A stretch of DNA of 64,000 nucleotides from Paeniglutamicibacter psychrophenolicus. GTDB taxonomy: Bacteria; Actinomycetota; Actinomycetes; Actinomycetales; Micrococcaceae. The stretch spans positions 4,630,443 to 4,694,442 of the forward strand of contig NZ_JAGIOE010000001.1 of NCBI RefSeq assembly GCF_017876575.1. Direction: 5' to 3'. The notes beneath the pieces were generated by a model that saw nothing but the letters and a program-made list of their open reading frames with translations, was not told the origin of the DNA and did not search any database. Shown in pieces: positions 5,664 to 33,113 of the stretch; position 1 is the first letter of the stretch; each line of letters starts with the position of its first letter. The position numbers were made by a program, and so were the translations under genes.

Positions 5664-5721
5664 GTTGCACTGATTGCAACTCGATTGCACTAGTATCTCC
5701 ATGTGACGATCCTCACGTCAA
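5664..5721 (-). promoter_or_regulatory. Promoter and palindromic operator of MHS-1/creatinase-1 operon
   Basis: On the minus strand TTGACG (5716-5721) and GATACT (5692-5697) are 18 bases apart. Immediately downstream of the -10 lies GTTGCACTGATTGCAAC (5664-5680, written on the plus strand), an inverted repeat GTTGCA-N5-TGCAAC, with an additional TTGCAC half site at 5685-5690. The same layout recurs at three other promoters in the window, which supports a repressor site overlapping the transcription start. Confidence 0.7.
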
Positions 5722-6152
5722 GCCTTTGCGTGGGCATCTTTCCAGAAATGCACCCACCCAAACAAGCAGCCTCCGATTCCCGCCCAACACCCGGTCGCGT
5801 CCGGGGACCCTGGCGCAGACCTGCCCGCTCATTTCGGCTCCAATGCTGCGCACGGGAGGCTTCGCCGCAGTGCCGGCACCATCACCGGATGGATAGACCG
5901 GTACCCGCACGGCACGAGGGCACCGAGGACGCATTGCCGCGGGGCGTCCGCGGAATTCCAGACTTCCCGCCAGGGCATCCGTGTCGTCGACCGATCCGAT
6001 AAGGACGGTGGGCGGTGGGGACCGGAATCAGCCATGCGGCTCCCAGTGCCCAGGCAGAAAGTACCTCGGTGAACCAGTGACATCCGAGGCAGACCCTGCC
6101 CGGTGAGGCCGGGATCGGCTTCGGCCTCCGCAGGCACCCGGCCTTCACGGGA
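5722..6152. other. Gene-poor stretch between creatine operon and IS remnant
   Basis: No reading frame here shows a recognisable protein motif or a convincing ribosome binding site; the open frames on both strands are typical high-GC shadows. It adjoins an IS110-type relic, so it may be decayed sequence left by insertion and rearrangement between the two transporter-creatinase modules. Confidence 0.5.
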
Positions 6153-6918
6153 TCAAATGGCCAGGCAGGTGGCGGCCGTGACGACGCCGAAGCCCTTCAT
6201 CCCAGGCAGCGGTGCGGCCTCGATGACCTTGACCAGTTCGGTGATCCGCGTGTTCTTGCCGGCCAGGTCCTTGTCGAGCTCACCGATCCGCTTCGCCAGC
6301 CGGACGACTTCGGCACTGGCCACCGAGAGCGCCGGCTCCTCGTCGCGGGCACGCCACCGGGACACCTCGGCAATCTGCACGGCGCTCAGGGCCTTGCGGG
6401 CGTCCAGGCCAGGCTCGTTGAGACGTACCAGCGCGGTCAACGCATTCACATCCCCGGTGATTTCATTGGTCATCGAATCACATGCAGCTACCAAGCCCCT
6501 CAAGGCCGCGCGAACGCCGTCGGCCTGCCGCGGGCGGCGCAATCACTTGATCGCCAGCGGGAGCACGCCCTGGCGATCCTCTGGGCATCGAGTTCGGATT
6601 TTCCGACGCCGCGGGGCGCCCGGGCATCCATCCGCGCCGCCTCGACGGCCGGGCACACCTCGGCGGCCACGGCGCCGGCGAGGGTGTCCCCGCAGGAGAC
6701 CACCCATTCGATCACCCGGAGCGCGGCGAGGTCGGCGCCGGTGCGGCGGGCCACCCAGGCGAAGGCGCGGCCGAAGTCGGCACTGCTCGCGGGAACTACC
6801 TGGTGTCGATGCGCCCACCGGTCTTGGCGGCGAGGAGGGCGTAGACGTGCTTGCGTGCGTGTGTGTCGACACCACCGGCAAATGCATGAGGATGCGCGAC
6901 GATAGATTTGGCGGTCAT
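6153..6918 (-). pseudogene. Degenerate IS110-family transposase
   Basis: Pieces of one transposase are spread over three minus-strand frames. The N-terminus (from an ATG at 6918) reads MTAKSIVAHPHAFAGGVDTHARKH, with the Asp of the DEDD RuvC-like domain. A middle piece in another frame contains GKSELDAQRIARA, typical of IS110 proteins. The C-terminal piece, ending at 6153, has LVKVIEAAPLPGMKGFGVVTAATCLA, the Transposase_20-type helix-hairpin-helix segment. At least two frameshifts separate them, so the element is inactive. No clear element ends were found; IS110 elements usually lack terminal inverted repeats. Confidence 0.75.
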
Positions 6919-7191
6919 TCGCACCCTCCTCCTCACGGATATGGTCATGGCCGCTGTCGGCCGGCACCAGTGCCGGTAGAGGTTGGTTCGGAACAATACT
7001 GTGACGAGTTCACGTCCCGGGTGCGGACAGCCTTCAGATCAAGTCGCACAGCGGTTCGTGTCCGTCGATGCAGGATTTTGCCTCCGGCTTCCCTCCGACC
7101 CCACCTCGCGGTGACGCGGTTGCAGCTGAACCACCTTGTCTTTCAGAGGACTTTCAACTCCAAGCACATGCCCATGCTGGGCGCGCCAAAA

Positions 7192-7227
7192 GGGGCGGTG
7201 GGGTGCACGCGTGCATCCCACCGCCCC
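7192..7227 (-). terminator. Stem-loop after creatinase copy 2
   Basis: GGGGCGGTGGG at 7192-7202 pairs exactly with CCCACCGCCCC at 7217-7227, and the interior TGCACGCGTGCA is itself self-complementary, giving a nearly perfect 36-base hairpin 18 bases past the creatinase stop. The core GCACGCGTGC is shared with the hairpin after copy 1, but the outer arms differ by compensating changes. Confidence 0.75.
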
Positions 7228-7244
7228 ATCATGCCAGTTCGAGG

Positions 7245-8501
7245 CTAGGCATCGATGATGTTGTTCTCCGGGCCGAAGCCGAACTTGGTGATGTTCTCCA
7301 CGCCGCCGTCCTCGCCGATGACCAGGATGTCGTGCTCGCGGTAGCCACCGGCACCCGGCTCGCCGTCGGCGATGGTGACCATCGGCTCCATCGAGACGAC
7401 CATGCCCGGCTCGAGGACCGTGTCGATGTCCTCGCGCAGCTCCAGGCCCGCCTCGCGGCCGTAGTAGTGCGAGAGGACTCCGAAGGAGTGGCCGTAGCCG
7501 AAGGTGCGGTTGGGCAGCAGTCCGTGGCCGATGAAGATCTCGTTGAGCTCCGCGGCGATGTCCTTGCAGACCGCTCCGGGCTTGATCAGTTCCAGGCCGC
7601 GCTTGTGCACCTCGACGTTCGCGTTCCACACCTGCAGCGAGCGGGCGTCCGGCTCGCCGAGGAACAAGGTGCGCTCCAGGGCGGTGTAGTAGCCGGAAGT
7701 CATCGGGAAGCAGTTCAGCGACAGGATGTCCCCGCGCTGAAGCTTGCGGGTGGTGGCCCAGTTGTGGGCGCCGTCGGTGTTGATGCCGGACTGGAACCAG
7801 ACCCAGGTGTCGCGGACCTCGCGGTGCGGGAAGGTCTTGGCGATCTCGTGCACCATGGCCTCGGTGCCGATCAGGGCGACCTCGTACTCGGTGATGCCCT
7901 CGCGGATCGCTGCCTTGATGGCCTCGCCGCCGAGGTCCCCGATGCGGGCGCCGTGCTTGATGACCTCGATTTCCTCCGCGGACTTGATCATGCGCTGGCG
8001 CATGGCATCCTGCGAGACATCCACCAGGGTGGCACCGTCGAAGGTGGCGGCGATGGCCTGGCGGGTCATCAGCGGCAGGGCGTCGTCCTCGACGCCGATG
8101 CGCGCTGCCTTCACGCCGTTGCGCTTCAGGGCCTCCTGCAGGCCGAAGTAGAAGTTGTCGCGCTTCCAGTCGGTGTAGACGATGTTGTCGCCGTAGCTGG
8201 TGCGCCACGGCATGCCGGCGTCGATGTTCGCGGTGATGGTCGTCGAGCTGTCGGCGGTGACCACCAGCGCGTAGTTGCGCCCGAAGGTGGTGTAGAGGAA
8301 GTCCGAGTAGTACTTGATGCCGTGGTAGCTGGTCAGGATGACCGCGTCCAGTTCCTTGGCGGCCATGATCTTGCGCAGGCCGGAAAGGCGGCGCTCGAAT
8401 TCGGCGTCGGAGAAGGTCAGCTGCTGCTTGGTGCCGTTGTGCAGGGTCTTGAGGCGCTCAAGCTCGGAAATCTGGGTGACGGCTGCGGTTGCGTTCGACA
8501 T
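7245..8501 (-). CDS. Creatinase (creatine amidinohydrolase), copy 2
   Basis: A 418-residue creatinase. The protein equals copy 1 from SELERLKTLHNG to the C-terminus; only the first residues (MSNATAAVTQI against MTDTPANATNV) differ. By eye the DNA identity covers 7224-8470 against 2899-4145, about 1,247 bases at a constant offset of 4,325, with no difference noticed, which suggests recent duplication or gene conversion. It follows a second MHS transporter in a two-gene operon and ends at a strong hairpin. The function is hydrolysis of creatine to sarcosine and urea, in the cytoplasm. Confidence 0.94.
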   Translation of the reverse strand: MSNATAAVTQISELERLKTLHNGTKQQLTFSDAEFERRLSGLRKIMAAKELDAVILTSYHGIKYYSDFLYTTFGRNYALVVTADSSTTITANIDAGMPWRTSYGDNIVYTDWKRDNFYFGLQEALKRNGVKAARIGVEDDALPLMTRQAIAATFDGATLVDVSQDAMRQRMIKSAEEIEVIKHGARIGDLGGEAIKAAIREGITEYEVALIGTEAMVHEIAKTFPHREVRDTWVWFQSGINTDGAHNWATTRKLQRGDILSLNCFPMTSGYYTALERTLFLGEPDARSLQVWNANVEVHKRGLELIKPGAVCKDIAAELNEIFIGHGLLPNRTFGYGHSFGVLSHYYGREAGLELREDIDTVLEPGMVVSMEPMVTIADGEPGAGGYREHDILVIGEDGGVENITKFGFGPENNIIDA

Positions 8502-8568
8502 AGGGGGGTTCTCCTTCGTGTTGTTACGTGTTTGTTGATGGTTTGCGGGGAAGAAAGTGGGGGTGGTG

Positions 8569-9948
8569 CTATGCCAATGGCTTCTTGCTGGTTTCTGCCG
8601 AAAGCGCCACGGCGATCAGGGAGATCACTGCGGCCGCCATGAGGTACCAGCCGGGAGCCAGCAGGGATCCGGAGGTGGCGATCAGCAGCGTGGCCACGAA
8701 CGGGGCGGTGCCGCCGAACAGGGCGTTGGAGAGGTTGAAGGACACGGCGAATCCGGAGTAGCGGACCCGGGTCGGGAACATCTCGGCCAGGTAGCTCGGC
8801 AGGGTTCCGTCGTTGAGGCTCAGCATGCCTCCGAGCAGGATCTGTACGAGCACGATGACCAGGAAATTGCCCGTGTCCAGGAGCATGAAGGACGGGACGG
8901 TGAGCAGCACGAAGAGGATCGACGCCGTCATCAACACCTTCTTGCGGCCATACTTGTCCGAGAGCATGCCGGTGACGAAGATGAAGCCGATGTAGGTGGC
9001 CAGTGCCACGGTGGTCGCAGCGTAGGAGGCTGTCTCCGCCAGGCCGAGCTCGTTTGACAGGTAGGTCGGCATGTAGCTGAGGATGACGTAGAAGCCCACC
9101 GCGTTGAGCAGCACCGCGCCGACGGCCTGGATGAGCTGGCGCCAGTGGTTCTTGAACAGCGAGCTGACCGGGGTCGCCTCGGCAGTGTCCTGCTTCGCCA
9201 GCTCGGTGAAGACCGGGGATTCCTCGAGCCTGGTGCGGATGTAGCGGCCGATCAGGCCCATGGGCGCTGCCAGCAGGAACGGCAGGCGCCAGCCCCAGGA
9301 TTCCATCTGCCCTGCATCCAGCACGCCGGTAAGCACCGCCGCCATAAGCGAGCCCAGCAACAGGCCCGTGGCGGTGCTGGCCGGGACGACGGCGGCATAG
9401 AGGCCGCGCCGGTTGGCCGGGGCGTATTCGACCAGGAAGGCCGTGGCGCCGGCATATTCGCCGGAGGCGGAGAAGCCCTGCACGACGCGGATGATCAGCA
9501 GCAGGATCGGGGCCCAGATGCCGATGGTGTTGTAGGACGGGATGAAGGCCATGCAGAAGGTTGCGGCCGACATGATCAGGATCGACCAGGAAAGCGCTTC
9601 GCGCCGGCCGATCTTGTCCCCGAGGTGTCCCCAGACGAATCCGCCCAGCGGGCGGACGAAGAACGACACCGCGAAGAGCGCGAAGGTCAGCATCAAGCCG
9701 GTTGTCGGGTCGGAATCGGGGAAGAAGACCGCCGTGATGGTGACCGCCAGGTAACCGTAGACGGCGTAGTCGAACCATTCCACGAAATTGCCGATGAAGC
9801 TTGCGGCAACGACCTTGTTGCGCGTCTTGCTGTCGATGCCGACGGGGCCCTGGCCGCCGGCTTCGGGTCCGGAGCCGATGGTGAGCGTACTCGTGGCAGA
9901 ACGCGCGGCGGAGCCGTGGCCGGCCGCGGAGTTGTTGCGTTGAATCAT
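8569..9948 (-). CDS. MHS-family MFS transporter, copy 2 (creatine/creatinine uptake candidate)
   Basis: A 459-residue metabolite:H+ symporter-type transporter, paralogous to the one at 4238-5638 but with many amino-acid and synonymous changes, unlike the creatinases next to them. RPLGGFVWGHLGDKIGRREA and EMFPTRVRYSGFAVSFN are present. I chose the ATG at 9948 (MIQRNNSAAG), which aligns with the other copy's start MNQSNNTPAG; a longer frame from 9981 would begin inside the operator. The two transporters may differ in substrate (for example creatine against creatinine or sarcosine), which is inference. Confidence 0.88.
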   Translation of the reverse strand: MIQRNNSAAGHGSAARSATSTLTIGSGPEAGGQGPVGIDSKTRNKVVAASFIGNFVEWFDYAVYGYLAVTITAVFFPDSDPTTGLMLTFALFAVSFFVRPLGGFVWGHLGDKIGRREALSWSILIMSAATFCMAFIPSYNTIGIWAPILLLIIRVVQGFSASGEYAGATAFLVEYAPANRRGLYAAVVPASTATGLLLGSLMAAVLTGVLDAGQMESWGWRLPFLLAAPMGLIGRYIRTRLEESPVFTELAKQDTAEATPVSSLFKNHWRQLIQAVGAVLLNAVGFYVILSYMPTYLSNELGLAETASYAATTVALATYIGFIFVTGMLSDKYGRKKVLMTASILFVLLTVPSFMLLDTGNFLVIVLVQILLGGMLSLNDGTLPSYLAEMFPTRVRYSGFAVSFNLSNALFGGTAPFVATLLIATSGSLLAPGWYLMAAAVISLIAVALSAETSKKPLA

Positions 9949-9974
9949 TGTGGAACCACCAGAAATTTGCACGA

Positions 9975-10032
9975 GTTGCATTCATTGCAACGCTGTTGCG
10001 ACAACTCTATTTGTGCCGCGGGTCACTGTCAA
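9975..10032 (-). promoter_or_regulatory. Promoter and palindromic operator of MHS-2/creatinase-2 operon
   Basis: Minus-strand TTGACA (10027-10032) and TAGAGT (10004-10009) are separated by 17 bases. Downstream lies GTTGCATTCATTGCAAC (9975-9991, plus-strand reading) with an extra GTTGC at 9995-9999. The arrangement matches the promoter at 5664-5721. Confidence 0.75.
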
Positions 10033-10077
10033 GGGCAAATCTTGAGCTGCGTCACATTCGCCAATCTTGGCGTAAAC

Positions 10078-10113
10078 GCGGCGGGGTGCCCGGTTACCCG
10101 GGCACCCCGCCGC
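10078..10113 (-). terminator. Terminator of creatininase-BCCT operon
   Basis: A 16-base-pair perfect stem (10078-10093 with 10098-10113) and a TTAC loop lie about 35 bases past the BCCT gene stop. Read on the minus strand it is followed by GTTTACG. It also separates this operon from the head of the MHS-2 operon. Confidence 0.8.
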
Positions 10114-10148
10114 TTGTCATCCATCGCCGGTGGTCAACGCAACGCGGC

Positions 10149-11888
10149 CTACTTTCCGCCGCTCCCCGGAGCCTGCTCCGCGGGTGCGTGCTCGTGGCTG
10201 ACCAAGACAGCCTCACCGCTGGGCAGGTATTCGACGCGCTTGGTGGGACTCGGGTCGTTGACTTCCTTTTCCAGCCGCCGGATGCCCTTGTCGCGCTTGA
10301 TGAGCCGGCGGATGAGGTTGGCAATCATCAGCAGAATCACGAAGGAGAACGGGAAGGCGCCGATGATGGTGCCGGTCTGCACCGTGTCGATCACCGCGGT
10401 TCCGCCCAGCGTCAACAGCACCACGGCGACGGCCGCGATGCTGGCCACCAGGACCACACGGAAGCCCGGTCCGGACTTCTTGGGTGCGGAGACGAATTCG
10501 GCCAGCGCATAGGTGCCCGAGTCCAGTGACGTGACGTAGTAGGTTGCCACCAAGATGGTGGCCACGACCAGCAGCAGCCCGCCGATGATCGGGATGGACT
10601 CGAGCATCACGAACAGGCCGCTGGAGGTCTCCTCGGCCACGGCCGCCGATACTCCCCTATCGGTCTTGTCGTCGTAGTAGATGGCGGAGGAGCCAATGAC
10701 ACCGATCCAGATCATCACGATCAGGGAAGGAATCACGGTGACGCCGATGACGAATTCGCGAATGGTCCGTCCGCGGGAGATGCGGGCGATGAAGCCGGCA
10801 ACGAACGGCGAGAAGGCAATGACCCAGCACCAGATGAAGACCGTCCACCAGCCGTTCCAGCTGTCCTGCCAGCTCTCGAGCGGCTCGGCGGTGATCGACG
10901 AGTCCGTCCAGAAGCTCATTGGAATGAAGTTGGTGATGAACGAGCCGAAGGTCTGCGACAGGCTCGAGATGATGAACAGCGTCGGCCCGAAGACGAACAC
11001 GGCAACGACCAGTACGATGCTGAGGATGGAATTGGTCTCGCTGATCCGGCGCATGCCCTTGTTGATGCCGAAGAATGCCGACACCGCGGTCAGCGTGCCC
11101 AACGCGAGGATTACGATGAGCCAGGTCAGCGGACTGGATGCCAGTCCGGTGAACGAGGTGACACCCGAGCTGAACTGCATGGCGGCAAACCCAAAGGATG
11201 TTGCCAGCCCCAGGACGGTGGCGATGATGGCCAGTAGTTCCACCACGACGCCTGCCCCGCGCTGCGCCCAGCGGGGCAGGATGTCGACGGTGGCTTCGCG
11301 GAAGGTCAGGGTTTTGCCGAGGTTGTGGTGTGAATAAGCCAGGCAGACCGCGACGACGCAGTACATGGCCCAGGCCGTCAGGCCCCAGTGGAAGTATGAC
11401 CAGACGATGCCTCCCTCGGAGGCTCCCGCGTCGCCGACCGGGATGACGGGGTTTTCCTCGCGGAGCATGATGGGCTCGGCCACGGACCAGAAGATCAGTC
11501 CGATGCCTTGCCCGCAAGCGAAGAGCATGGAGTACCAGGCGAACTTGCTGTGTTCAGGCTTGGACTTCGGCCCGCCCAGCCTCACCTTGCCGACGCGGCT
11601 GACGGCGAGCCACACGCACACCGCGACGGCGATGATGGAATACATGATGAACAGCCAGGTGAACTTGCCGGTGACGAAGGTGCGCATGTTCGAGATGACC
11701 TTGGCTGCACCGACGGGGTTGAGGATCACCAGCAGGATCACCGTGGCGATCAGCACCGGCGGGAGGACCTTGATGACCAGCCGGTCAAGGGGCGGGATGT
11801 CCCTGCCCATGAACCTCGGGACCTCCACGAGCGAAGGTTCGCCCTTGTTGCCCGGGGACTTGGTGTGCGGGGATTCGTCAACGGACAC
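10149..11888 (-). CDS. BCCT-family transporter
   Basis: A 579-residue betaine/carnitine/choline-type secondary transporter with about 12 membrane segments. The family signature appears in the region FACGQGIGLIFWSVAEPIM, and the long tryptophan-rich helix 8 segment WNGWWTVFIWCWVIAFSPFVAGF is present. The GTG start shares its G with the TAG stop of creatininase, so translation is coupled; an ORF extending further upstream overlaps creatininase and is unlikely. The context suggests import of creatinine, creatine, glycine betaine or sarcosine; betaine is a plausible alternative because its demethylation also yields sarcosine. Confidence 0.88.
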   Translation of the reverse strand: MSVDESPHTKSPGNKGEPSLVEVPRFMGRDIPPLDRLVIKVLPPVLIATVILLVILNPVGAAKVISNMRTFVTGKFTWLFIMYSIIAVAVCVWLAVSRVGKVRLGGPKSKPEHSKFAWYSMLFACGQGIGLIFWSVAEPIMLREENPVIPVGDAGASEGGIVWSYFHWGLTAWAMYCVVAVCLAYSHHNLGKTLTFREATVDILPRWAQRGAGVVVELLAIIATVLGLATSFGFAAMQFSSGVTSFTGLASSPLTWLIVILALGTLTAVSAFFGINKGMRRISETNSILSIVLVVAVFVFGPTLFIISSLSQTFGSFITNFIPMSFWTDSSITAEPLESWQDSWNGWWTVFIWCWVIAFSPFVAGFIARISRGRTIREFVIGVTVIPSLIVMIWIGVIGSSAIYYDDKTDRGVSAAVAEETSSGLFVMLESIPIIGGLLLVVATILVATYYVTSLDSGTYALAEFVSAPKKSGPGFRVVLVASIAAVAVVLLTLGGTAVIDTVQTGTIIGAFPFSFVILLMIANLIRRLIKRDKGIRRLEKEVNDPSPTKRVEYLPSGEAVLVSHEHAPAEQAPGSGGK

Positions 11889-12682
11889 TACTTCACCCCC
11901 AGGACGGCGACGGGAAGCGAGTACTCGGCCTCGATGGCAGAGGCCACGCCATCGACCACGGCGTCGAGCAGAAGCCGGCCTCGATCGGCGCTGGCGCCCC
12001 TGGGGGAGGACAGACATCCGCTGGCCGGTGTTCGCGCGGGATCCTCCGGGAAGATGTCGTAGGGCTTGAGCAGGGCAGGCGGGTGGTCAACCGCACGGGA
12101 CATGTCGACCTTCGAGGGATGCAGCAGGAGCATCAGCGAGGTTTCCAGCACGCCGCCGTGCTCGATGTCCCAGCCAAGGAAACCGTCGGGAAAGACCGCT
12201 TCCAGGGTTTCCTCACCGACGAAGTCCCAGTAGGACAGCAACATGGCCCGCGCATCTGCTCCGGTCTCACGGGCACGGCCAACGGCAACTTCCAGGCCCT
12301 CGTAGATGAACTGGTAGTTCTCGAAGTGGCCGTTGAGGATGACCACCTTGGTGAATCCCTGGGCCATGAAGGACCGGGCAATGTCTTCCACCTGACCGGT
12401 CAGGGTTGCCCCGCTCAGGCTCGTGGTCCCGACTCGGTGGTTCCCTCCCCCGGAGCGCGGCTGGGATTTGTATCCATAGGACAGGGTGGGTGCCACCAGC
12501 GCGCCAAGCTTCTCGGCCACCGCACCGGAAATGGCGCGCGAAAGCATGGCGTCGACACCCAGCGGCATGTGGGGGCCGTGCTGTTCGGTGGCGCCGGCGG
12601 GGATGATGACCGTCGCATGCGGTTGGGACACGTATGCGGCGTACGTTTCGGCGTCGATATCTTCCAGGTAAACCGATTGCAT
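11888..12682 (-). CDS. Creatininase (creatinine amidohydrolase)
   Basis: A 264-residue enzyme that opens creatinine to creatine. It aligns closely with Pseudomonas creatininase: TEQHGPHMPLGVD holds metal ligands Glu33, His35 and Asp44; GYKSQPRSGGGNH and GTTSLSGATLTG follow; NGHFEN supplies His119 and Glu121; LSYWDFV and FLGWDIEHGGVLETSLML complete the active site, and DHPPALLKPYDIFPEDPARTPASG closes the protein. The whole ligand set is intact. It starts with ATG and is the first gene of a two-gene operon with the BCCT transporter. Confidence 0.95.
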   Translation of the reverse strand: MQSVYLEDIDAETYAAYVSQPHATVIIPAGATEQHGPHMPLGVDAMLSRAISGAVAEKLGALVAPTLSYGYKSQPRSGGGNHRVGTTSLSGATLTGQVEDIARSFMAQGFTKVVILNGHFENYQFIYEGLEVAVGRARETGADARAMLLSYWDFVGEETLEAVFPDGFLGWDIEHGGVLETSLMLLLHPSKVDMSRAVDHPPALLKPYDIFPEDPARTPASGCLSSPRGASADRGRLLLDAVVDGVASAIEAEYSLPVAVLGVK

Positions 12683-12748
12683 CTAGGTACTCCTCAGTGG
12701 TGCCGGCCCTCGGGGGCCGGACGGGTAGGGAAGGAAATCAAGAAGCCT

Positions 12749-12806
12749 GTTGTGATGAACGCAACAGAGTTGCACTGATCATGACAGTGACCCGAGTCAC
12801 CGTCAA
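12749..12806 (-). promoter_or_regulatory. Promoter and operator of creatininase-BCCT operon
   Basis: Minus-strand TTGACG (12801-12806) and CATGAT (12778-12783) lie 17 bases apart; the spacer holds GTGAC-TCGG-GTCAC. Downstream is GTTGTGATGAACGCAAC (12749-12765, plus-strand reading) plus TTGCAC at 12770-12775, the same three-part element as at the MHS promoters. Confidence 0.7.
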
Positions 12807-12857
12807 GTCTGTTTCGCGCCCGCCCGCGCAGCGCACCCATCGGCCAGGCACGCGAGC

Positions 12858-12894
12858 GCGGGCCCCCCGGCGAGGATGTCGCCGGGGGGCCCGC
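12858..12894 (-). terminator. Stem-loop after NCS1 permease gene
   Basis: A 16-base-pair GC-rich perfect stem (12858-12873 with 12879-12894) with a 5-base loop directly follows the NCS1 stop on the minus strand. No T-run follows, but the position between two operons fits a terminator. Confidence 0.6.
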
Positions 12895-12907
12895 GGGGAC
12901 CGTTCGC

Positions 12908-14557: not shown

Positions 14558-14664
14558 TGGTTCACTCTTTCGGCTGCTATGGCACTGTTAGAACTAGTAG
14601 ACAATCCTAGAAGTGATCTGCGCCACGTAGTACACTCAAACCGTATGCTCCTCACGGTCATTGG

Positions 14665-14679
14665 GTGACAAAGTGTCAC
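14665..14679. promoter_or_regulatory. 15-base palindrome in the NCS1/PucR divergent region
   Basis: GTGACA-AAG-TGTCAC is a perfect inverted repeat located 54 bases before the PucR start and 108 bases before the NCS1 start. It is the only strong symmetrical element in this intergenic region and is the best candidate site for the PucR regulator. Confidence 0.5.
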
Positions 14680-14732
14680 TCGCCAAGTCTGAGGCTCGGC
14701 GATCGCGTCGCGCTGAGAGTTAGGAATCCTGC

Positions 14733-16235
14733 ATGTTGCTGAATCTCAACGACGTCCTGGCCACCCCTCTTTTCATCAAAGCGCATCCGCGGATCATGGC
14801 GGGGGCCGAAAACGCGGCGACCAATCTGGTGCGCTGGGTGCACTCGAGCGAGGTCCTCGAAATCGCACCCTTGTTGCGCGGTGAAGAGCTACTGCTCAGC
14901 GGCGGCCAGAACCTCCTGGCGCTTCGGGTCGAGGCCCAGGTCCAGTACATCCAGAGCCTGGCCGAGCGAAAGGTAGCCGCCCTGGTCATCGACACGGTGG
15001 GCCTGAACCGGTCACTGTCCCCCGCCCTGATCGAGGCGGCGGAAACAGACGGGTTGCCCTTGATCGAACTGCGCGCCACCGTGCCTTTCGTAGAACTGGC
15101 CGAGACCATCAACCGGGCCATCGTCTCCGCCCAGGCCCTGGCGCTGCAACGTGCCGACGAGGTCTCCCAGCGGCTGGCACACCGGATCGCCACTTCCGGC
15201 CCGGGCCTGCCCCCGCTGGTGGCGCTGATCGCCCAAAACCTGAACGTGAATGCATTGCTCGTCGACATGGGCGGCAACATCCTGGCCAGCAGCAGAGACA
15301 TCCCCGACGACCGGATCAAGATGAAGGTCGTTTCCGACATCTTCCTCTCCGACCTTGTCGCGGCGCGGCTCCAACTGGAAAGCCGCCATCCGGCCGAACG
15401 GGAGCTGCTGTCCACGGTGGCGGAGCGGCTCGGAAGCATCCTGGCGCTCGCGCTGTCCCAGCACCATCGGCCCACCCGGTCACAGATCGCCGATGCGGCA
15501 CTCACGCAGGCGATCATCCGCGATGCCAGCGCCAACGACATCAGGGAGCTTTGCGGGCAGGTCGGGCTCGACGCGGCAGTCCCGGTGGCCGTGCTGGTGA
15601 TTCGCGGGGTCGAACTGGGTCGGGTCCGCAGCGCGGTGGAGAGGATCCTGCGGCGCAACAGCCCCGACATCAAGACCTATCTCGATTCCGAATACCTTTA
15701 CGGAGTGATTCCACTGAAGGGGGTTTCGCCCCGGAAGGAGCGCCGGCGGATCCTGCTGGGGTTGCGCGAGGAGATAGAGACGGTGGCGGTCCAGGGCATC
15801 ATGGGCCCATGGGTGCCCGATGCCACGCACGGACAGTGGTCCCTGCAACAGGCCCTCCTGACCGAACGCCTCGCGCTGCCCATGCCGAATTCCGGGGCGC
15901 TGCGCGACTGCGAAGACGTCGCCCTGGAGCGCCTCTGCGAGCGGGAACTCGGGCCGCGGAAGATCGCGCGCTACATTCAGGAGCTCCTCTCGGACTTGCT
16001 GCTGCACGACAGCATGCGCTCCGGCGATCTGGTTGCCACCCTGGATGTCTGGCTGTCGAGCGGATGCAATTCCACCGCTGCTGCGGCCGCATTGTTCATG
16101 GAACGCCAGACGTTGCACAAGCGGCTGAACAAGATCTTCGACCTGCTCGGCGGCGATCCGCGCGGAACCTCGCGCCTCGCGGCGATCCACTTGGCAACAC
16201 GACTGGCCCTCGCAAACCTGGGCACGCGCAAATAG
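14733..16235 (+). CDS. PucR-family transcriptional regulator
   Basis: A 500-residue regulator with an N-terminal PucR domain (about residues 5-125, beginning LNDVLATPLFIKAHPRIMAG), a central GGDEF-like/sensor region, and a C-terminal CdaR/PucR helix-turn-helix (TLDVWLSSGCNSTAAAAALFMERQTLHKRLNKIFDLLGGD). Members commonly activate purine or amino-acid catabolic genes. It is divergent from the NCS1 permease, which is therefore the probable target; the nearby creatininase operon is another. The ATG is preceded by TAGGAATCCTGC. Confidence 0.87.
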   Translation: MLLNLNDVLATPLFIKAHPRIMAGAENAATNLVRWVHSSEVLEIAPLLRGEELLLSGGQNLLALRVEAQVQYIQSLAERKVAALVIDTVGLNRSLSPALIEAAETDGLPLIELRATVPFVELAETINRAIVSAQALALQRADEVSQRLAHRIATSGPGLPPLVALIAQNLNVNALLVDMGGNILASSRDIPDDRIKMKVVSDIFLSDLVAARLQLESRHPAERELLSTVAERLGSILALALSQHHRPTRSQIADAALTQAIIRDASANDIRELCGQVGLDAAVPVAVLVIRGVELGRVRSAVERILRRNSPDIKTYLDSEYLYGVIPLKGVSPRKERRRILLGLREEIETVAVQGIMGPWVPDATHGQWSLQQALLTERLALPMPNSGALRDCEDVALERLCERELGPRKIARYIQELLSDLLLHDSMRSGDLVATLDVWLSSGCNSTAAAAALFMERQTLHKRLNKIFDLLGGDPRGTSRLAAIHLATRLALANLGTRK

Positions 16236-16269
16236 CGCGCCGCACCCGGGCTGCCGGCTGGAGCCGGCT

Positions 16270-16941
16270 TTAGAGCACTGCCCTGATTGTCTGCTCGAAG
16301 CTGGTGATGTGCGCCAGGGCCAGGGCCTCGGCCGCATCCGCCTCCCTTGCCACGATGGCGTCGAGCAGGTCCGCATGCTCCTCGATATGCCCCGCGACGG
16401 ACGGGACCTTGTCCAGCACCAGGCACCAGATGCGGGTGGCCAGGTTGTCCAGGCGGATCAGCGTTTCCTCCAGGTGCGGGTTTCCCGCCACCCGATAGAT
16501 CAGCCGGTGAACGCTGAGGTCATATTGCATCAACCCGCGCTTGTCGACGTTCTTGTCCCGCAGCCGCTCGATGTCGCGCGCCAGTTCACGCAGGGCGTCG
16601 CGATCAGCGTCCGAGGCGCCAAGCGCGGCCTTGCGGGCGGCCAGGGGTTCGAGCGAACGGCGGAGTTCAGAGACGTCGGCCAACTCGGTGATATCCACGA
16701 TCGTGGCAAAGGTTCCGCGCCGCGGATAGGAGATGACCAGGTGGTCGATTTCCAGGCGCTTGAGTGCCTCGCGCACCGGGGTGCGCCCGACGCCCAGCTC
16801 CAACGCGAGCTGCCCGTCGTTGATGGGTTCCCCCGGTTTGATATCCAGCATGATCAACCGGTCCCGGATGTCCCGGTAAGACTGTTCGGCCAGCGAAATG
16901 GGCTCGGCCAGCAACCCCGGGCCTGCGGAGACTGCGCTCAT
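16270..16941 (-). CDS. GntR-family regulator, FCD subgroup
   Basis: A 223-residue protein with an N-terminal GntR winged helix (RLIMLDIKPGEPINDGQLALELGVGRTPVREALKRLE) and a C-terminal all-helical FCD domain with the Asp/His ligand pattern (DLSVHRLIYRVAGNPHL, HIEEHADLLDAI). The ATG at 16941 has AAGGAGAA upstream; the longer frame to 17034 lacks a site. It is divergent from glyA-soxBDAG-sdaA-purU, with 157 bases between them, and probably controls that operon in response to an organic acid or sarcosine/glycine. That target assignment is inferred from position. Confidence 0.88.
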   Translation of the reverse strand: MSAVSAGPGLLAEPISLAEQSYRDIRDRLIMLDIKPGEPINDGQLALELGVGRTPVREALKRLEIDHLVISYPRRGTFATIVDITELADVSELRRSLEPLAARKAALGASDADRDALRELARDIERLRDKNVDKRGLMQYDLSVHRLIYRVAGNPHLEETLIRLDNLATRIWCLVLDKVPSVAGHIEEHADLLDAIVAREADAAEALALAHITSFEQTIRAVL

Positions 16942-17010
16942 GTGATTTTCTCCTTGTTGTCGCCGATCAACCTTAGTGTGACCGGCATGGCGACTCATTT
17001 CAGGCGGCTG

Positions 17011-17039: not shown

Positions 17040-17098
17040 TGTGTCCAGTTCTGATATATCAATCAGCAACAACTTGTACTTCAAGGAGTGAATACTGG

Positions 17099-18421: not shown

Positions 18422-18425
18422 GAAC

Positions 18426-24880: not shown

Positions 24881-24881
24881 G

Positions 24882-25748
24882 ATGGATACGAAGTCCGAAG
24901 TTGAACACGTACTGACTGTCGCCTGCCCCGAGCGCCCAGGCATCGTCCATGCGGTGACGGGGTTCCTGCTGGGTGAAGGCCGCGACATCGTCGAGCTCAA
25001 GCATTTCGGGGACCGCCGCGCCGGGCAGTTCTTCATGCGCATCGACGTCGCCGGCCCCGACGCCGAGGGCCTGACCGAGCGCATGCGCGGCGGCTTCGAG
25101 GCGCTGGCGGCGGAGTACGGCATCACCTGGACGCTGGCGCCAAAGGGCACCAGGAAGCGGGTGCTGATCATGGTCTCCAAGTTCGACCACTGCCTCAACG
25201 ACCTGCTGCACCGGGCCCGGCTGGGCGAGCTGCCGATCGACGTGGTCGCGGTGGTCTCCAACCACACCGACCACCAGTCCCTGGCGCAGTGGCACAACGT
25301 GCCGTTCTTCCACGTGCCTGTCACCCCGGAGACCAAGCCGGAAGCCGAGGCGCGGCTGCTGGAGTTGATCGACCAGTTCGACGTGGAGCTGGTGGTCCTG
25401 GCCCGCTACATGCAGGTGCTCAGCGACGAGCTCAGCGCCAGGCTCAGCGGCATGACCATCAACATCCACCACTCGTTCCTGCCCAGCTTCAAGGGGGCCA
25501 AGCCGTACCACCAGGCCTGGGACCGCGGGGTCAAGACCGTGGGCGCGACCGCGCACTACGTCAACGCCGAGCTCGACGAGGGCCCGATCATTTCCCAGCA
25601 GGTCCAGGACGTCGACCACACCTACTCCCCCGCGGACCTGGTGGCGGCCGGGCGCGACACCGAATGCAAGGCGCTGTCCAACGCGGTGAAGTGGCATTGC
25701 GAGGGCCGGGTGTTCCTCTACGGCAACCGCACCGTGGTGCTGCGCTAG
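24882..25748 (+). CDS. purU: Formyltetrahydrofolate deformylase
   Basis: A 288-residue enzyme releasing formate from 10-formyl-tetrahydrofolate. An N-terminal ACT domain (residues 8-85, [19 protein letters not shown]) precedes a formyltransferase-fold domain with [17 protein letters not shown] and the [11 protein letters not shown] segment, together giving the Asn-His-Asp active site. It ends the sox operon 1 base after sdaA, before a strong terminator. It probably recycles tetrahydrofolate when sarcosine supplies more C1 units than GlyA can use. Confidence 0.94.
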
Positions 25749-25768
25749 CGCCATGCCTTTTCGGCCTC

Positions 25769-25812
25769 GGGCCGGCGGGATCCCTTCCGGGGTTCCGCCG
25801 GCCCGATTTTTT
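25769..25812 (+). terminator. Rho-independent terminator of the sox operon
   Basis: GGGCCGGCGG (25769-25778) pairs with CCGCCGGCCC (25795-25804) and is followed by GATTTTTTG. This is the clearest intrinsic terminator in the window. Confidence 0.9.
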
Positions 25813-25865
25813 GTGCCGGGAGTCCGGCCGGGTCCGGGATGTGAGTCGCGATCAAACACCTTGCG

Positions 25866-25886
25866 CTATACCCCTATGGGGTATAG
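25866..25886 (+). promoter_or_regulatory. CsoR-type copper operator
   Basis: Arms CTATACCCC (25866-25874) and GGGGTATAG (25878-25886) form a perfect inverted repeat around TAT. The ATACCCC-N3-GGGGTAT pattern is characteristic of CsoR-family repressor sites. It ends 9 bases before the start codon of the copper ATPase. No csoR gene was seen in the window, so the regulator would act from elsewhere. Confidence 0.75.
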
Positions 25887-25895
25887 CTTGGTGGC

Positions 25896-27989: not shown

Positions 27990-28025
27990 GGCCCGCACTG
28001 CCCGCGAGTCGGCATCCACCCGCCC

Positions 28026-28056
28026 TTGACATTGACGCAACGTCAAGCTTTACCGT
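28026..28056 (+). promoter_or_regulatory. MerR-type promoter with 19-bp spacer and operator
   Basis: TTGACA (28026-28031) and TACCGT (about 28051-28056) are 19 bases apart, the over-long spacer typical of MerR-activated promoters. Inside it TTGACG-CAA-CGTCAA (28032-28046) is a perfect inverted repeat. The promoter is that of the downstream MerR gene, indicating autoregulation. Confidence 0.75.
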
Positions 28057-28063
28057 TGGTTCC

Positions 28064-28825
28064 ATGGAACGCTCGATTCAACAGGTTGCCAAGCTCGCCG
28101 GCACCACCAGCCGCACGCTGCGCCACTACGACGACATCGGGCTGCTGCCGCCCAGCCGGATCGGGCACAACGGCTACAGGTATTACGACGAATCCGCGCT
28201 CATCCGCCTGCAGCGCATCCTGCTGCTGCGCGAGCTGGGACTGGGCCTGCCACAGATCGCCGACCTCATCGCGGCCGAGGCCAACGAGGCCCAGGCGCTG
28301 ACGACGCACCTTTCCCTGTTGCGCGCCGAACAGGACCGCCTGGCCCGGCAGATCGCCGCGGTGCAGCACACCATCAATTCACTCCAAGGAAGCGAAAAGC
28401 TCATGGCAAAGAACATGTTTGACGGTTTTGACCACACGGTGCACCGGGAAGAGGTGGAGCAACGCTGGGGCAAGAAGACCTACGCCCGCTCCGATTCCTG
28501 GTGGCGGGGGCTGGGCAAGGAAGGCCAAGACGTCTGGAAGAGCCGCGTCCGGGAACTTGGCAGGGACTGGATCGACGCGGCCCGGGACCCCGGAACCACC
28601 CCGAACTCCCCGCGGGCCCAGGACCTGGCCCGGCGCCATGTCCAGTGGCTCACCGGGATTCCGGGAACCCCCGCCGCCGACTCTCCCGAACACACCAAGG
28701 CCTACGTACTGGGACTTGCCGAGATGTACGTGGCCGACGAGCGCTTCGCCGCGAACTACGGCGGAACCGAGGGAGCATCGTTTGTGCGCGATGCCCTAAA
28801 GGCCTACGCCAAGACCATGCCGTAG
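28064..28825 (+). CDS. MerR-family regulator with TipAS drug-recognition domain
   Basis: A 253-residue protein. The N-terminal MerR domain (IQQVAKLAGTTSRTLRHYDDIGLLPPSRIGHNGYRYY) is followed by a coiled-coil dimerisation helix (about 75-108) and a C-terminal TipAS-like domain starting at MFDGFDHTVHREEVEQRWGKKTYARSDSWW and containing the YVLGLAEMYVADERFAANYGG segment. The internal ATG at the MAKNMFDGFD start could yield a separate short TipAS form, as in Streptomyces TipA. It may sense thiopeptide-like or other lipophilic compounds. No obvious resistance gene follows, so the regulon is unknown. Confidence 0.87.
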   Translation: MERSIQQVAKLAGTTSRTLRHYDDIGLLPPSRIGHNGYRYYDESALIRLQRILLLRELGLGLPQIADLIAAEANEAQALTTHLSLLRAEQDRLARQIAAVQHTINSLQGSEKLMAKNMFDGFDHTVHREEVEQRWGKKTYARSDSWWRGLGKEGQDVWKSRVRELGRDWIDAARDPGTTPNSPRAQDLARRHVQWLTGIPGTPAADSPEHTKAYVLGLAEMYVADERFAANYGGTEGASFVRDALKAYAKTMP

Positions 28826-28834
28826 TCTGGCCGC

Positions 28835-29044
28835 ATGGAAAGCCACACGTACACGCTGCAATATGCCGGCCAAGATTTCACGCTCACCGAGGCCGACCAC
28901 AAGAAACTGTCCAAGATCTACAGTTCGGGGCTGTCCATCAGCAGCGTGTTGTACCGGTTCATTCCTGTGGGAGAGGACGGCGAGGTGGCCATTGCCGTGG
29001 GTGCCGGCGCGCAACTCGTGCTCCGGAAAGGCATCCCGGCGTAG
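28835..29044 (+). CDS. Small protein of unknown function
   Basis: A 69-residue frame starting 9 bases after the MerR gene. It is acidic to neutral, without a membrane segment, and has an alternating hydrophobic pattern in the C-terminal half (YRFIPVGEDGEVAIAVGAGAQLVL). I do not recognise a family. The close spacing suggests co-expression with the regulator. A GTG/ATG frame at 28863 overlaps it but has shadow-like composition. Confidence 0.45.
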   Translation: MESHTYTLQYAGQDFTLTEADHKKLSKIYSSGLSISSVLYRFIPVGEDGEVAIAVGAGAQLVLRKGIPA

Positions 29045-29112
29045 GCCATCGGCCCCACACGCCGCACCCGCGTGAGACGGTGCGGATGCGGCGGCGGGGG
29101 GTCCCAAACCAC

Positions 29113-29170
29113 AGGTGCGTCGGCGCGAACATCTTCAGCAGCGCCTGCAGCACCACGACGTTCGGGCCCC
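29113..29170 (-). pseudogene. Relic of a TPP-enzyme gene 3' end
   Basis: These 58 bases match 30360-30417, the 3' end of the intact TPP-enzyme gene, with about six differences, and encode [17 protein letters not shown] against [17 protein letters not shown]. The frame does not stop at the same place and no upstream body of the gene is recognisable. The surrounding 29045-29402 stretch holds no other gene that I can support. It may mark an ancient duplication or deletion endpoint. Confidence 0.6.
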
Positions 29171-29402
29171 GAAATGCCGGCGCACGCGCCGTCGAACCAG
29201 GACTCCGGCGGTCCCCACGCTAGCTGATGAGGGATTCCAAGGCACCTGAAGACACCGCACGCGCCGCACGCCTGGTTCCCGCAGGTCGGAAAAATAGGTC
29301 TGGCCATGGCCGGGATGCAATGTCATCATTGAACCCGACCGTCCGCTACCCCAAGGCATGGCCGAAACGTCGATAGCTTGACCCTGCGGGAGGTTGGAAG
29401 CA

Positions 29403-30236
29403 ATGACAAGTGACAAACGCCGGCGGCAGCTGGGCGACAACGCGGCCCCGGTGGAAGAGGAAATCGAGGAGTCCTTCGATCGAATCGTCGAAGACGGCGC
29501 CCAACGCCTGGCCCGCTCCTGGACGACGATGCTGGTCACCGGGACTTTCGGCGGACTGGAAGTCGGCGTCGGCGTGATGGCATACCTCGCGGTCATGCAC
29601 GAAACACACAACCACCTGTTGGCCGGGTTGGCCTTCGGCATCGGCATGGTTGCCCTGCTGCTGGCAAAGAGCGAGTTGTTCACCGAGGGATTCCTGGTGC
29701 CGATCGCCGCGGTCGCCGCCAAGGAGGCCAGCGTCGGCCAGCTGATCAAGCTGTGGGGCTCAACCCTGGTGATGAACCTCGTCGGCGGATGGGTCTTCAT
29801 GTGGATTGTGGTGAAGGCCTTTCCCCAATGGAGGCCCGAGCTGGAAGACGCGGCCCGGTACTTCGTGGAGGCCGGGTTCACCTGGCAGTCGATCTGCCTG
29901 GCCATCCTTGCCGGCAGCACCATCACGCTGATGACGCGAATGCAACAAGGCACCGACTCCGACGTGGCGAAAATGGCGGTGGCCATGGCCGATGGCTTCA
30001 TCCTCGTCGGACTGCAGCTGTTCCACTCGGTGCTGGATTCGCTACTCATATTCGGGGCCATCCATGCAGGGGTCCCCATCGGATACGAGGATTGGCTGGG
30101 CTGGTTTGGCTACACGGTGCTGTTCAACATGGTCGGCGGCCTGCTACTGGTCACGACTCTGCGGTTGGTGCGCAACAAGGACCTGATTCGCGAACGCCGG
30201 GAGGATGCGCCGGAAGATCCGGACGCCGCCCGGTAA
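29403..30236 (+). CDS. Formate/nitrite transporter-family membrane protein
   Basis: A 277-residue protein with about six membrane helices (TMLVTGTFGGLEVGVGVMAYL, GLAFGIGMVALLLAKSELFTEGFL, TLVMNLVGGWVFMWIVVKAF and others). The KSELFTEGF segment matches the FocA/NirC-type signature. The ATG at 29403 follows GGAGG; a TTG nine bases earlier is also in frame. In context it might release formate made by PurU, although the gene is 3.6 kb away and in another transcription unit; nitrite or hydrosulfide are alternatives. Confidence 0.8.
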   Translation: MTSDKRRRQLGDNAAPVEEEIEESFDRIVEDGAQRLARSWTTMLVTGTFGGLEVGVGVMAYLAVMHETHNHLLAGLAFGIGMVALLLAKSELFTEGFLVPIAAVAAKEASVGQLIKLWGSTLVMNLVGGWVFMWIVVKAFPQWRPELEDAARYFVEAGFTWQSICLAILAGSTITLMTRMQQGTDSDVAKMAVAMADGFILVGLQLFHSVLDSLLIFGAIHAGVPIGYEDWLGWFGYTVLFNMVGGLLLVTTLRLVRNKDLIRERREDAPEDPDAAR

Positions 30237-30296
30237 AGGTGCCACGAGCCGCCCCCCTGGCGTCTCGGCGCAAACGCCCGCAGACGGGACAAGCGA

Positions 30297-30319
30297 CCCG
30301 GTTCCATGAATGAACCGGG
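30297..30319. terminator. Stem-loop between convergent genes
   Basis: CCCGGTTC (30297-30304) pairs with GAACCGGG (30312-30319) around a 7-base loop, between the FNT gene on the plus strand and the TPP-enzyme gene on the minus strand. A GC palindrome also sits at 30339-30356. No T-run follows, so terminator function is tentative. Confidence 0.45.
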
Positions 30320-30355
30320 CCCCCTTGTCCCTGTAGACGGCCGGCTTCCGGCCGG

Positions 30356-32014
30356 CTAGAGGTGCGTTGGCGCGAACATCTTCAGCAGCGTCTGCACCAC
30401 CACGACGTTGGGTCCCTGCGCGGCGAATGACTCCTCGAGCGCCTCGCGCACGTTCTCCGGCTCCACCAGTCGGGCCGGGATCCCGAAGGACTGCGCCAGC
30501 GCCACGAAGTCCGGGCGGGCGAGCTCGGTGGCCGTGGCCTTCCCGAAGGTGCCCTCCATGTACTCGCGCAGGATCCCGTAGCCGCCGTCATCGACGATCA
30601 GCCAGGTGACCGGCGCGTTGTGCTGCTTCGCGGTGGCCAGCTCGGCGATCGAGTACATGGCCGAACCGTCGCCGGAGACCGCCAGCACGCGCTCGCCCAA
30701 CCCCAGCGCCCCGCCGATGGCGGAGGGGAAGCCGAAGCCCAGGCCGCCGGCGCCCTGCGCGGAGTGGAATTCCCCGTCCCGCGCATCCCAGCAGCTCCAG
30801 CCCCAGTAGGCGGAGATGGTCATGTCCCAGAAGGTCTGCATGTCATCGGGCACAGCGGCACGGATGTCTGCCATGAACGTGCGTTCCTTGGCCAGGTCCT
30901 GCGAGTCCAGGCGTGCCACGACCTTGGCCAGGGTGTCGGCAACGACCCCTTCGGGCCCCTGCCCGTGCCAGTCGGCCTCGGTCCCGCCCTCGACCTTGCC
31001 CAGGGCCTCGCCCAGGTATTCGAGCGCGGCCTTCGCGTCGGCCCGGATGCCCAATGCGGGACGGTTGGATTCGAGCACGCGCGGCTCGGCGTCGATCTGG
31101 ATCAGGTGCCCGCGCGGTTCCAGGGTGAAGTAGTTGCTGGTGACCTCGCCCAGGGCGGAGCCCACCACGATCAGCACATCCGCGTCCTCGAGGATTTCGG
31201 TGACGTGCCGGTCCTCGACCCAGGACTGCAGGGACAGCGGGTGGTTCCAGGGGAAGGCGCCGTTGCCGCCGGGCGAACAAACCACCGGCGCGCGCAGCGT
31301 TTCGGCCACCGCCAGCAGCGCATCCTGTGCCCCGGCCCGGCGCACCCCGCCGCCGGCCACGATGACCGGGCGGGCCGCCTTGGCCAGCCAGCGGACCGCC
31401 TCGTCGATGAGCTCCACGCGCGGCGGGTGCTCGTACGCCTCGGCCAGTGCATCAACCACCGGCGGGACAAAGACCTCGGCCAGCAGGACGTCCTGCGGGA
31501 CCTCGACCCAGACCGGTCCCTGCGGCACGGTGATGGCGTCCGCCCAGGCGTCCTGGATCGCCGAGGGGATGCCCGAGGCGTGGTGCACGGTGCGCTGGGA
31601 CTTGGTGACGTTTGCGGCCGAGGCCTTTTGGTCGTCGAGCTGGTGCAGCATGCCCTTGCGGCGGGCGCCGAGCCCGTCCAGCGGGATCTGGCTGGCCACC
31701 ACGACCATCGGCACACTCGTGGCATAGGCTTCCTGCAGCCCGGCCAGCGAGGTCAGCGCACCGGGGCCGGTGGACAGGAAGAGCACCCCGACCTCGCCGG
31801 TGGCCCGGGCATAGCCGTCGGCGGCAAAGGCGGAGTTGTTTTCCACGCGGGACGAGACGAAATGCAGCTTCGAGCGCGAGAGTGCGTCGAACAGGCCCAG
31901 GGCGTGCTGGCCGGGGATGCCGAAGACCGTGTGGGCGCCGAGCGCCTCGAGGGTCTCGATGACCAGGTCCCCGCCGTTGCGCGTGCCCACCTCGGCGATG
32001 TCGTCCGGGCTCAT
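30356..32014 (-). CDS. Thiamine diphosphate-dependent decarboxylase/synthase-like enzyme
   Basis: A 552-residue ThDP enzyme of the acetolactate synthase fold, with three domains (PYR about 10-175, central 195-330, PP about 375-545). The cofactor-activating Glu is in [18 protein letters not shown], and the Mg-ThDP motif is [12 protein letters not shown]. The second half of that motif, normally NN, reads DDGGYG here. The gene overlaps the ureohydrolase gene by ATGA. That pairing suggests a guanidino-acid pathway, for example 2-ketoarginine (5-guanidino-2-oxopentanoate) decarboxylation feeding 4-guanidinobutyrate hydrolysis; this is inferred from position only. Confidence 0.82.
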
Positions 32015-33003
32015 GCCTGGGCCGCTTTCTTGTCGTTGGCGCGCTTGTCGGCGATCAGCGAGATCAGGTCGTAGGCGACGTGCGAGGCGGCGACGCCGGT
32101 CATTTCGGCGTGGTCGTAGGCCGGGGCGACCTCGACGATGTCCGCGCCGACGATGTTCATGCCGCGCAGCCCGCGGATGATTTCGAGCAGTTCGCGGCTG
32201 GTGATGCCGCCGGCTTCGGGGGTTCCGGTGCCCGGGGCGTGGGCCGGGTCCAGCACGTCGATATCCACCGAGATGTACAGCGGGCGGTTGCCGATGCGGT
32301 CGCGGAGCTTGTCCACGATCTCGCGCACGCCCTGGTAGTAGACATCCGAGCTGGTCACGATGCCGAAGCCGAAGCGCTTGTCGTCCTCGAGGTCCTTCTT
32401 GCCGTAGAGCGGGCCGCGGGTGCCCACGTGGGAGATGGCCTCGGTGTCGAGGATGCCCTCCTCCACGGCGCGGCGGAAGGGTGTTCCGTGGGTGTATTCG
32501 GCGCCGAAGTAGGTGTCCCAGGTGTCCAGGTGCGCGTCGAAGTGCAGCATGGCCACGGGGTTTCCCGCGCGTTCGGCGGCGGCGCGCAGCAGCGGCAGGG
32601 CGATGGTGTGGTCCCCGCCCAGGGTCACCAGGGTGGAACCGTCCGCGGTGAGATCCAGCGCATTTTGCTGGATGGTCTCGATGGCTTCGTTGATGTTGAA
32701 CGGGTTCACCGCCATGTCCCCGGCGTCCGCGACCTGGGTCAGCGCGAACGGCGAGACATTCAGGGCCGGGTTGTACGGGCGGATCAGTCGCGAGGACTCG
32801 CGGATGTGGGTGGAACCGAAGCGCGCGCCGGGCCGGTAGGAGACCCCGGAGTCAAACGGCACCCCGACGACCTTGATGTCCGCGGAGGGCACCTGGTCGA
32901 TGCGCGGGAGCCTGGCATAGGTCCCCAGTCCGGCGAAGCGCGGAATCTTGGAGGCATCGATGGGCCCGATGTTTCCGTTGTCTTCAATGCGGATTTCTTC
33001 CAC
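32011..33003 (-). CDS. Agmatinase/guanidinobutyrase-type ureohydrolase
   Basis: A 330-residue manganese enzyme that removes urea from a guanidino compound. Ligand motifs are complete: GGDH (His132), FDAHLD (Asp156, His158, Asp160) and SVDIDVLDP (Asp247, Asp249). [16 protein letters not shown] and [12 protein letters not shown] are typical of agmatinases and guanidinobutyrases. I start at the GTG at 33003, with GGGAGAA 5 bases upstream; the longer frame runs into the operator at 33054. Agmatine, 4-guanidinobutyrate, guanidinopropionate or guanidinoacetate are possible substrates. It shares its promoter layout with the creatine genes. Confidence 0.9.
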
Positions 33004-33053
33004 GATCTTCTCCCTCAGGGGTTTCCGGCAGTACCCACCGCCGGCCACGTCTT

Positions 33054-33113
33054 GTTGCTCAATATGAAACAACCGTTGCCCTGTATGCTATTTGTGGCGC
33101 GGCTTACAGTCAA
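33054..33113 (-). promoter_or_regulatory. Promoter and operator of the ureohydrolase operon
   Basis: Minus-strand TTGACT (33108-33113) and TAGCAT (33085-33090) are 17 bases apart. Downstream, GTTGCTCAATATGAAAC (33054-33070, plus-strand reading) resembles the GTTGCA-N5-TGCAAC element of the creatine promoters, with a further GTTGC at 33075-33079. The match is more degenerate than the other three. Confidence 0.6.

Follow-up and report, generated by a model that had tools for sequence, protein, structure and literature searches.

The 64,000-nucleotide stretch of the Paeniglutamicibacter psychrophenolicus genome analysed here (hereafter the window; contig NZ_JAGIOE010000001.1, positions 4,630,443 to 4,694,442) contains a set of creatinine and creatine genes and, far from them, a ureohydrolase gene paired with a thiamine pyrophosphate (TPP) enzyme gene (33003 down to 30356). 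On the minus strand, a major facilitator superfamily (MFS) transporter, creatinase, deaminase, IclR-family regulator and cupin follow one another from 5638 down to 1081, and upstream of this IclR operon lie a second MFS-creatinase pair, a BCCT transporter gene and a creatininase gene. Three-box operators, also on the minus strand, are found before the MFS-creatinase-deaminase-IclR-cupin operon (operator 1, 5664–5688), before the second MFS-creatinase pair (operator 2, 9975–9999), and before the creatininase and BCCT transporter genes (operator 3, 12749–12773). A separate three-box motif, GGCAAC-N4-GTTTCA-N6-GCAAC, precedes the ureohydrolase (33054–33080, minus strand). We consider it probable that two regulons use these look-alike promoters, with IclR acting on the creatinine operons and an XRE-cupin regulator (37227–37802) acting on the ureohydrolase-TPP pair. 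This reading draws on sequences, conservation, co-occurrence and linkage, from which we infer binding, the sign of control, the ligands and the role of CRP.

The IclR gene (1508–2302, minus strand) matches Pfam PF09339 (HTH_IclR, 48.7 bits) and PF01614 (IclR_C, 101.6 bits), both above cut-off, and its product is 98% identical to a locus of Arthrobacter sp. AQ5-05. The first creatinase copy (2920–4176, minus strand; Creatinase_N and Peptidase_M24 domains) and the second (7245–8501, minus strand) are 98% identical, and their MFS partners (4238–5638 and 8569–9948, both minus strand) are 82% identical; the ATG at 9948 leaves operator 2 upstream of the second MFS gene. The nearest models for the first MFS protein are metabolite/H+ symporters (TIGR00883, 412.3 bits, just under the cut-off of 443.45), and by analogy with CreT (PMC8864220) it is a putative creatine carrier. 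The creatininase (11888–12682, minus strand) scores 341.9 bits against TIGR04448 (cut-off 235).

The first-pass annotation had described GTTG-N9-CAAC with an additional half site at all four promoters. Within the window the short core occurs exactly only at 5664, 9975 and 12749; at 33054 it reads GTTG-N9-AAAC, with one mismatch and a shifted left box. By itself the core is weak evidence and not beyond chance, with three occurrences found versus 1.07 expected and three or more in 9 of 100 shuffles. Operators 1 to 3 fit one longer pattern, GCAAY-N3-GTTG-N8-RCAAC, which is rare: in 4.9 Mb of genome it occurs exactly only four times, at the window operators and at one other place. Allowing up to one mismatch gives 11 matches versus 5 for the reversed control, and a loose pattern with three mismatches is uninformative (1647 matches versus 1614 for the control). 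Operators 1 and 2 are exact matches and operator 3 is an exact match to the looser pattern, with a weaker profile score (27.8, versus 43.8 and 33.0 for the other two); operators 1 and 2 are not independent, because the operons they serve are duplicates. All three contain a GTT-11-AAC core and an alternating third box, allowing Y/R variants. In an alignment of 39 promoters hand-picked from exact matches (omitting the L001 copy, which is identical to operator 1, two L160 sites that are the same as L011, and one-mismatch matches), the operator is mostly GCAAC-N3-GTTGC-N7-GCAAC and begins a few bases past the -10. The first-pass annotation had named common matches at promoters of unrelated genes as a refutation of its proposal; the genome scan favours the three-box motif, which has one further exact match, at another creatinine-route gene.

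A survey of 197 genomes of the family relates the operator to IclR. The exact (stricter) operator motif is present in 87 of them and its reversed control in none (0/197), a homologue of the window IclR (E≤1e-60) in 92, and creatinase (E≤1e-150) in 93. Operator and IclR are found together in 84 genomes, the site only in 3, IclR only in 8 and neither in 102 (11 discordant), while IclR and creatinase coincide in 90 genomes, with creatinase only in 3 and IclR only in 2. For 106 of the 131 type A sites, an IclR with 50% identity or more is encoded no further than 12 kb away. Distant targets are also present: in three genomes (L209–L211) type A sites precede genes for MFS carriers that are megabases from IclR or on a different contig, and in three others (L212–L214) they precede creatinase or creatininase operons 20–35 kb from it. 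Genomes G031 and G065 have genes for creatinase, creatininase, NCS1, PucR, GntR, SHMT and SoxB, but no IclR at E≤1e-60, no exact site genome-wide, and no site within two mismatches in the 20 kb around creatinase. Because of this co-occurrence, the linkage, the distant targets and the missing site where IclR is missing, the IclR at 1508–2302 is the likely binder of operators 1 to 3. Weighing against this are the sites in G032 and G111, near which no creatinine gene is seen, and the eight genomes that have IclR and no exact site. Two exact three-box sites (L207, 9698–9722, and L208, 7649–7673) are found in genomes lacking IclR and have no creatinine gene in view; they reflect either chance or some other target.

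The fourth exact match in the genome is outside the window (C1:1049704) and precedes an N-carbamoylsarcosine hydrolase gene, whose product matches N-carbamoylsarcosine amidohydrolase 1nba (E 1.7e-173). A hydantoinase-type gene is divergent from it, and an IclR paralogue with 42% identity to the window IclR is encoded 2 kb away. The path through N-methylhydantoin and N-carbamoylsarcosine is the other known creatinine breakdown route, so that scanning the genome with nothing but the operator led to it. Among 18 type B sites (GTTGCT-N5-AGCAAC), 11 are within 12 kb of one of the IclR matches listed, the nearest being the paralogue for 9 of the 11. All 12 annotated type B loci, which hold 13 of the 18 sites, show a hydrolase gene, a hydantoinase gene or both, and the paralogue is in view at 11, with L206 as the exception. 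The recognition helix is typically LHKSS[IV]SRIL in IclR clade A and LHKSTVSR[MI]L in clade B, with some clade A proteins (L101–L103, L105, L106) carrying the T of clade B, and the near-identical boxes of the two clades fit the small difference between their helices. We offer only tentatively the further idea that the paralogous IclRs share an operator alphabet, such that both creatinine routes and the distant creatine carriers would form one cross-talking regulon with a CRP-like site in the core promoter as its gate. The cytidine-deaminase-like gene of the creatinase-IclR operon (2354–2830, minus strand; Pfam dCMP_cyt_deam_1) is retained in several relatives; it could be a putative creatinine or related deaminase supplying the second route.

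The -35/-10 pairs reported in the first-pass annotation are present at all four promoters, each with a 17-base spacer, and in all four a CRP-like box lies between the two elements. Read from the sequence, all on the minus strand, these are promoter 1 (5693–5721; -35 TTGACG, GTGAGGATCGTCAC, -10 GATACT), promoter 2 (10004–10032; -35 TTGACA, GTGACCCGCGGCAC, -10 TAGAGT), promoter 3 (12778–12806; -35 TTGACG, GTGACTCGGGTCAC, -10 CATGAT) and the ureohydrolase promoter (33085–33113; -35 TTGACT, GTAAGCCGCGCCAC, -10 TAGCAT), in which the CRP-like box is weaker (GTAA...CCAC). The CRP/GlxR consensus is a GTGA-N6-TCAC-like palindrome. GTGA-N7-CAC is present in 33 of 35 aligned creatinine promoters (those left for this count and for the profile after dropping four type B rows) versus 0.6% of random 50-mers from the same loci. 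The creatinine and ureohydrolase promoters thus look like one class by eye because both have a three-box site of CAAC/GTTG boxes behind a TTGAC, a -10 and, between them, a CRP-like palindrome. The CRP-like boxes in both sets suggest a common global input, which would be a carbon signal.

The ureohydrolase operator departs from the creatinine operators in several respects. Its left box is one base further off (AAC-N4-GTT versus N3), and with the creatinine core profile it scores 6.8 versus 18.7–31.8 for the three creatinine sites. Among the best 30 ureohydrolase loci, 15 are of one genus, our own genome included, and the promoter site is conserved in all 15 of these, at 21 to 27 of 27 positions. 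When a profile built from the 15 is applied to the 15 other family loci, 9 stand out from random stretches and L079 is borderline, whereas L078, L081, L082, L083 and L085 are not above random stretches. The working ureohydrolase profile was made from 26 of the 30 sites, L078, L081, L083 and L085 being dropped for having fewer than 15 of 27 matches; a few weak rows are in it, as this cut-off is inside the noise (reached by 1268 of 4000 random 280-base stretches, which include true sites and so overstate the noise). The site is found in seven genomes without a homologue of the window IclR (E≤1e-40), clearly so in G011, G020, G031 and G033.

The XRE-cupin protein encoded at 37227–37802 (minus strand; HTH_3 32.1, HTH_31 33.6 and Cupin_2 39.7 bits, above cut-offs) is the most likely binder of this operator, as judged from its position and promoter. 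Outside the ureohydrolase promoter, the only place in the window with ureohydrolase-profile matches of 6 or more is 37882–37929, in front of the XRE-cupin gene, where overlapping matches on both strands score 20.2, 15.4 and 8.5; this second ureohydrolase-type operator lies between that gene and a divergent SSF transporter gene (37966–39492, plus strand; Pfam SSF), a possible regulon member. A search with one relative's protein finds orthologues of the XRE-cupin in 33 of 59 genomes, among them our own. Of the 30 genomes whose ureohydrolases are closest, 29 have the gene on the ureohydrolase's contig and within 7 kb, positions being compared by eye, and G027 has none; the genome of L078 has no XRE-cupin at the cut-off. 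It directly precedes the ureohydrolase in at least four of seven loci (L081, L083, L084, L085). The best match of the ureohydrolase profile is in the 220 bp before the XRE-cupin gene in 26 of 30 loci. In our own genome, a joint pattern allowing at most one mismatch matches only the ureohydrolase and XRE-cupin promoters.

Several points count against this assignment. Two of the 26 XRE-cupin promoter matches score very low, at 3.9 and -7.3 bits, and in the other four of the 30 loci the best match is elsewhere and below 0 bits. Relatedness among the genomes (one genus supplies 15 of the 30 ureohydrolase loci) means that Fisher p-values and the count of 26 of 30 overstate independence. The joint pattern was built from both of its top places and so shows rarity elsewhere, not their match. 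Among the IclR-lacking genomes, the ureohydrolase sites of G022, G032 and G034 are weaker than the others, and that of G024 is not above noise. Two observations belong beside these data. The intergenic region between the XRE-cupin and SSF genes (37803–37965) contains TTGACG, then a CRP-like TGTAAGGCATCTCACA, then the ureohydrolase-type operator. At G000:C1:1382659-1382695 (L165, L166), overlapping matches to the ureohydrolase-type motif are found on both strands with two mismatches.

The likeness of box sequence and geometry raises the possibility that the window IclR binds all four sites in one guanidino-compound regulon. On its better strand the ureohydrolase core scores 7.4 with the creatinine core profile (6.8 on the other), and among 127,968 window positions just four outside the creatinine sites score higher; in addition, the ureohydrolase site of the relative L074 scores 15.7, which is inside the creatinine range (minimum 12.0). 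Cross-binding of IclR to the ureohydrolase site is thus possible on sequence grounds. However, the site is kept in the seven genomes lacking the window IclR (four of them clear), its box spacing differs, and it is linked to XRE-cupin; outside the genus, likeness to the creatinine core does not follow the presence of IclR (Mann-Whitney p 0.41, 4 versus 7 genomes, same-genus genomes left out). We judge a single regulon to be quite unlikely. Another IclR-family protein, rather than XRE-cupin, might read the ureohydrolase operator, as the site has the three-box geometry (GTT-11-AAC, AAC-N4-GTT) given for this family in PMC8222616, but this too is unlikely. Homologues of the two IclRs (E≤1e-4) are absent from 60 ureohydrolase/XRE-cupin loci with flanks of up to 1.5 kb and from elsewhere in the window; of two longer regions searched, L156 has one homologue, the creatinine IclR, and L161 has none. 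XRE-cupin is the constant neighbour of the ureohydrolase.

For the creatinine operators, the PucR gene (14733–16235) and the GntR gene (16270–16941) are in the same neighbourhood and their products could be the binders. We hold this to be very improbable, and rejected both candidates, since G031 and G065 carry both genes without the site, and L012 and L158 carry the site with neither gene in view. An origin of the repeats in chance or in ordinary promoter features would agree with the short core not being significant in the window, but 87 of 197 genomes with the three-box pattern versus none with the reversed control refutes a chance origin of the creatinine operator and leaves this explanation with almost no likelihood. 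The first-pass annotation's choice of IclR as binder is therefore retained as likely for the three creatine/creatinine operons, on co-occurrence, linkage, distant targets and natural absence, and IclR is rejected as binder of the fourth site, given its presence in seven IclR-lacking genomes, its one mismatch, its changed spacing and its low creatinine-profile score. The same persistence without IclR and score of 6.8, together with a profile of its own that leads to XRE-cupin, speak against the proposed guanidino-compound regulon with a non-creatine substrate.

With the two-regulon reading, the IclR encoded at 1508–2302 would bind the three-box operator just downstream of the -10 at three creatine/creatinine operons, one of which encodes IclR. 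We infer repression because of this operator position: bound IclR would block initiation or escape, and a pathway compound (creatinine, creatine or sarcosine) may release it. The paralogous IclR elsewhere in the genome would read the near-identical operator before the N-carbamoylsarcosine hydrolase gene. XRE-cupin would bind the different three-box motif of the ureohydrolase-TPP promoter and control its own promoter, and perhaps that of the divergent SSF transporter.

The ureohydrolase (32011–33003, minus strand) belongs to the agmatinase family (TIGR01230, 213.9 bits, cut-off 174.3), and with guanidinobutyrase 3nio as top PDB match (E 1.3e-80) it is probably guanidinobutyrase-like. The TPP enzyme (30356–32014, minus strand) is of the acetolactate synthase superfamily; its top NCBIfam model is a hypothetical-protein subfamily (349 bits, below the cut-off of 571) and its second is 5-guanidino-2-oxopentanoate decarboxylase (340 bits, below the cut-off of 500). 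None of the reference proteins used matched the region 5900–7200, which is flanked by the duplicated creatinase-MFS pairs and by eye resembles a mobile-element remnant. A perfect palindrome, GTGACA-AAG-TGTCAC, lies at 14665–14679 between the NCS1 permease and the divergent PucR gene and is a candidate operator of some other regulator.

Three-box sites of the IclR family, as given in PMC8222616, consist of a GTT-11-AAC palindrome and an alternating third box. The sites of PcaU, PobR and HmgR described there share with ours the palindrome, the third box and a regulator in or beside the regulated operon, but differ from the GCAAC/GTTGC boxes and the creatinine/creatine regulon found here; the terms creatin* and sarcosine are absent from the main text of that paper. 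In Corynebacterium glutamicum ATCC 14067, PMC8864220 places the creatine genes under nitrogen control by the TetR-family AmtR at CTAT-N6-ATAG; carrier, creatininase, N-carbamoylsarcosine amidase and hydantoinase genes are of like kinds, but AmtR stands there in place of the dedicated IclR-type operator here. The XRE-cupin proteins of Pseudomonas act locally as inhibitors of adjacent genes, and autoregulation is suspected for some of them (PMC7901475). PauR, PsdR and ErfA resemble our protein in combining XRE and cupin domains, in neighbouring targets, likely autoregulation and polyamine/arginine-type substrates, and differ in being from another phylum, with the third box and the ureohydrolase-TPP target peculiar to the present case. 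Among the open-licence papers listed we found no IclR-type regulator of creatinine or creatinase genes, a search in which older subscription work on Arthrobacter could be missed.

The link first drawn to the guanidino operon is corrected, its probable regulator being encoded 4 kb away in the same window. Arthrobacter-type bacteria are a source of clinical creatinine-assay enzymes. The outcome for this group is a testable regulator, its operator, a regulon spanning two routes, and a natural control in genomes that have the genes and lack both IclR and site. Should the predicted binding be confirmed, IclR would become a candidate sensor of creatinine or creatine.

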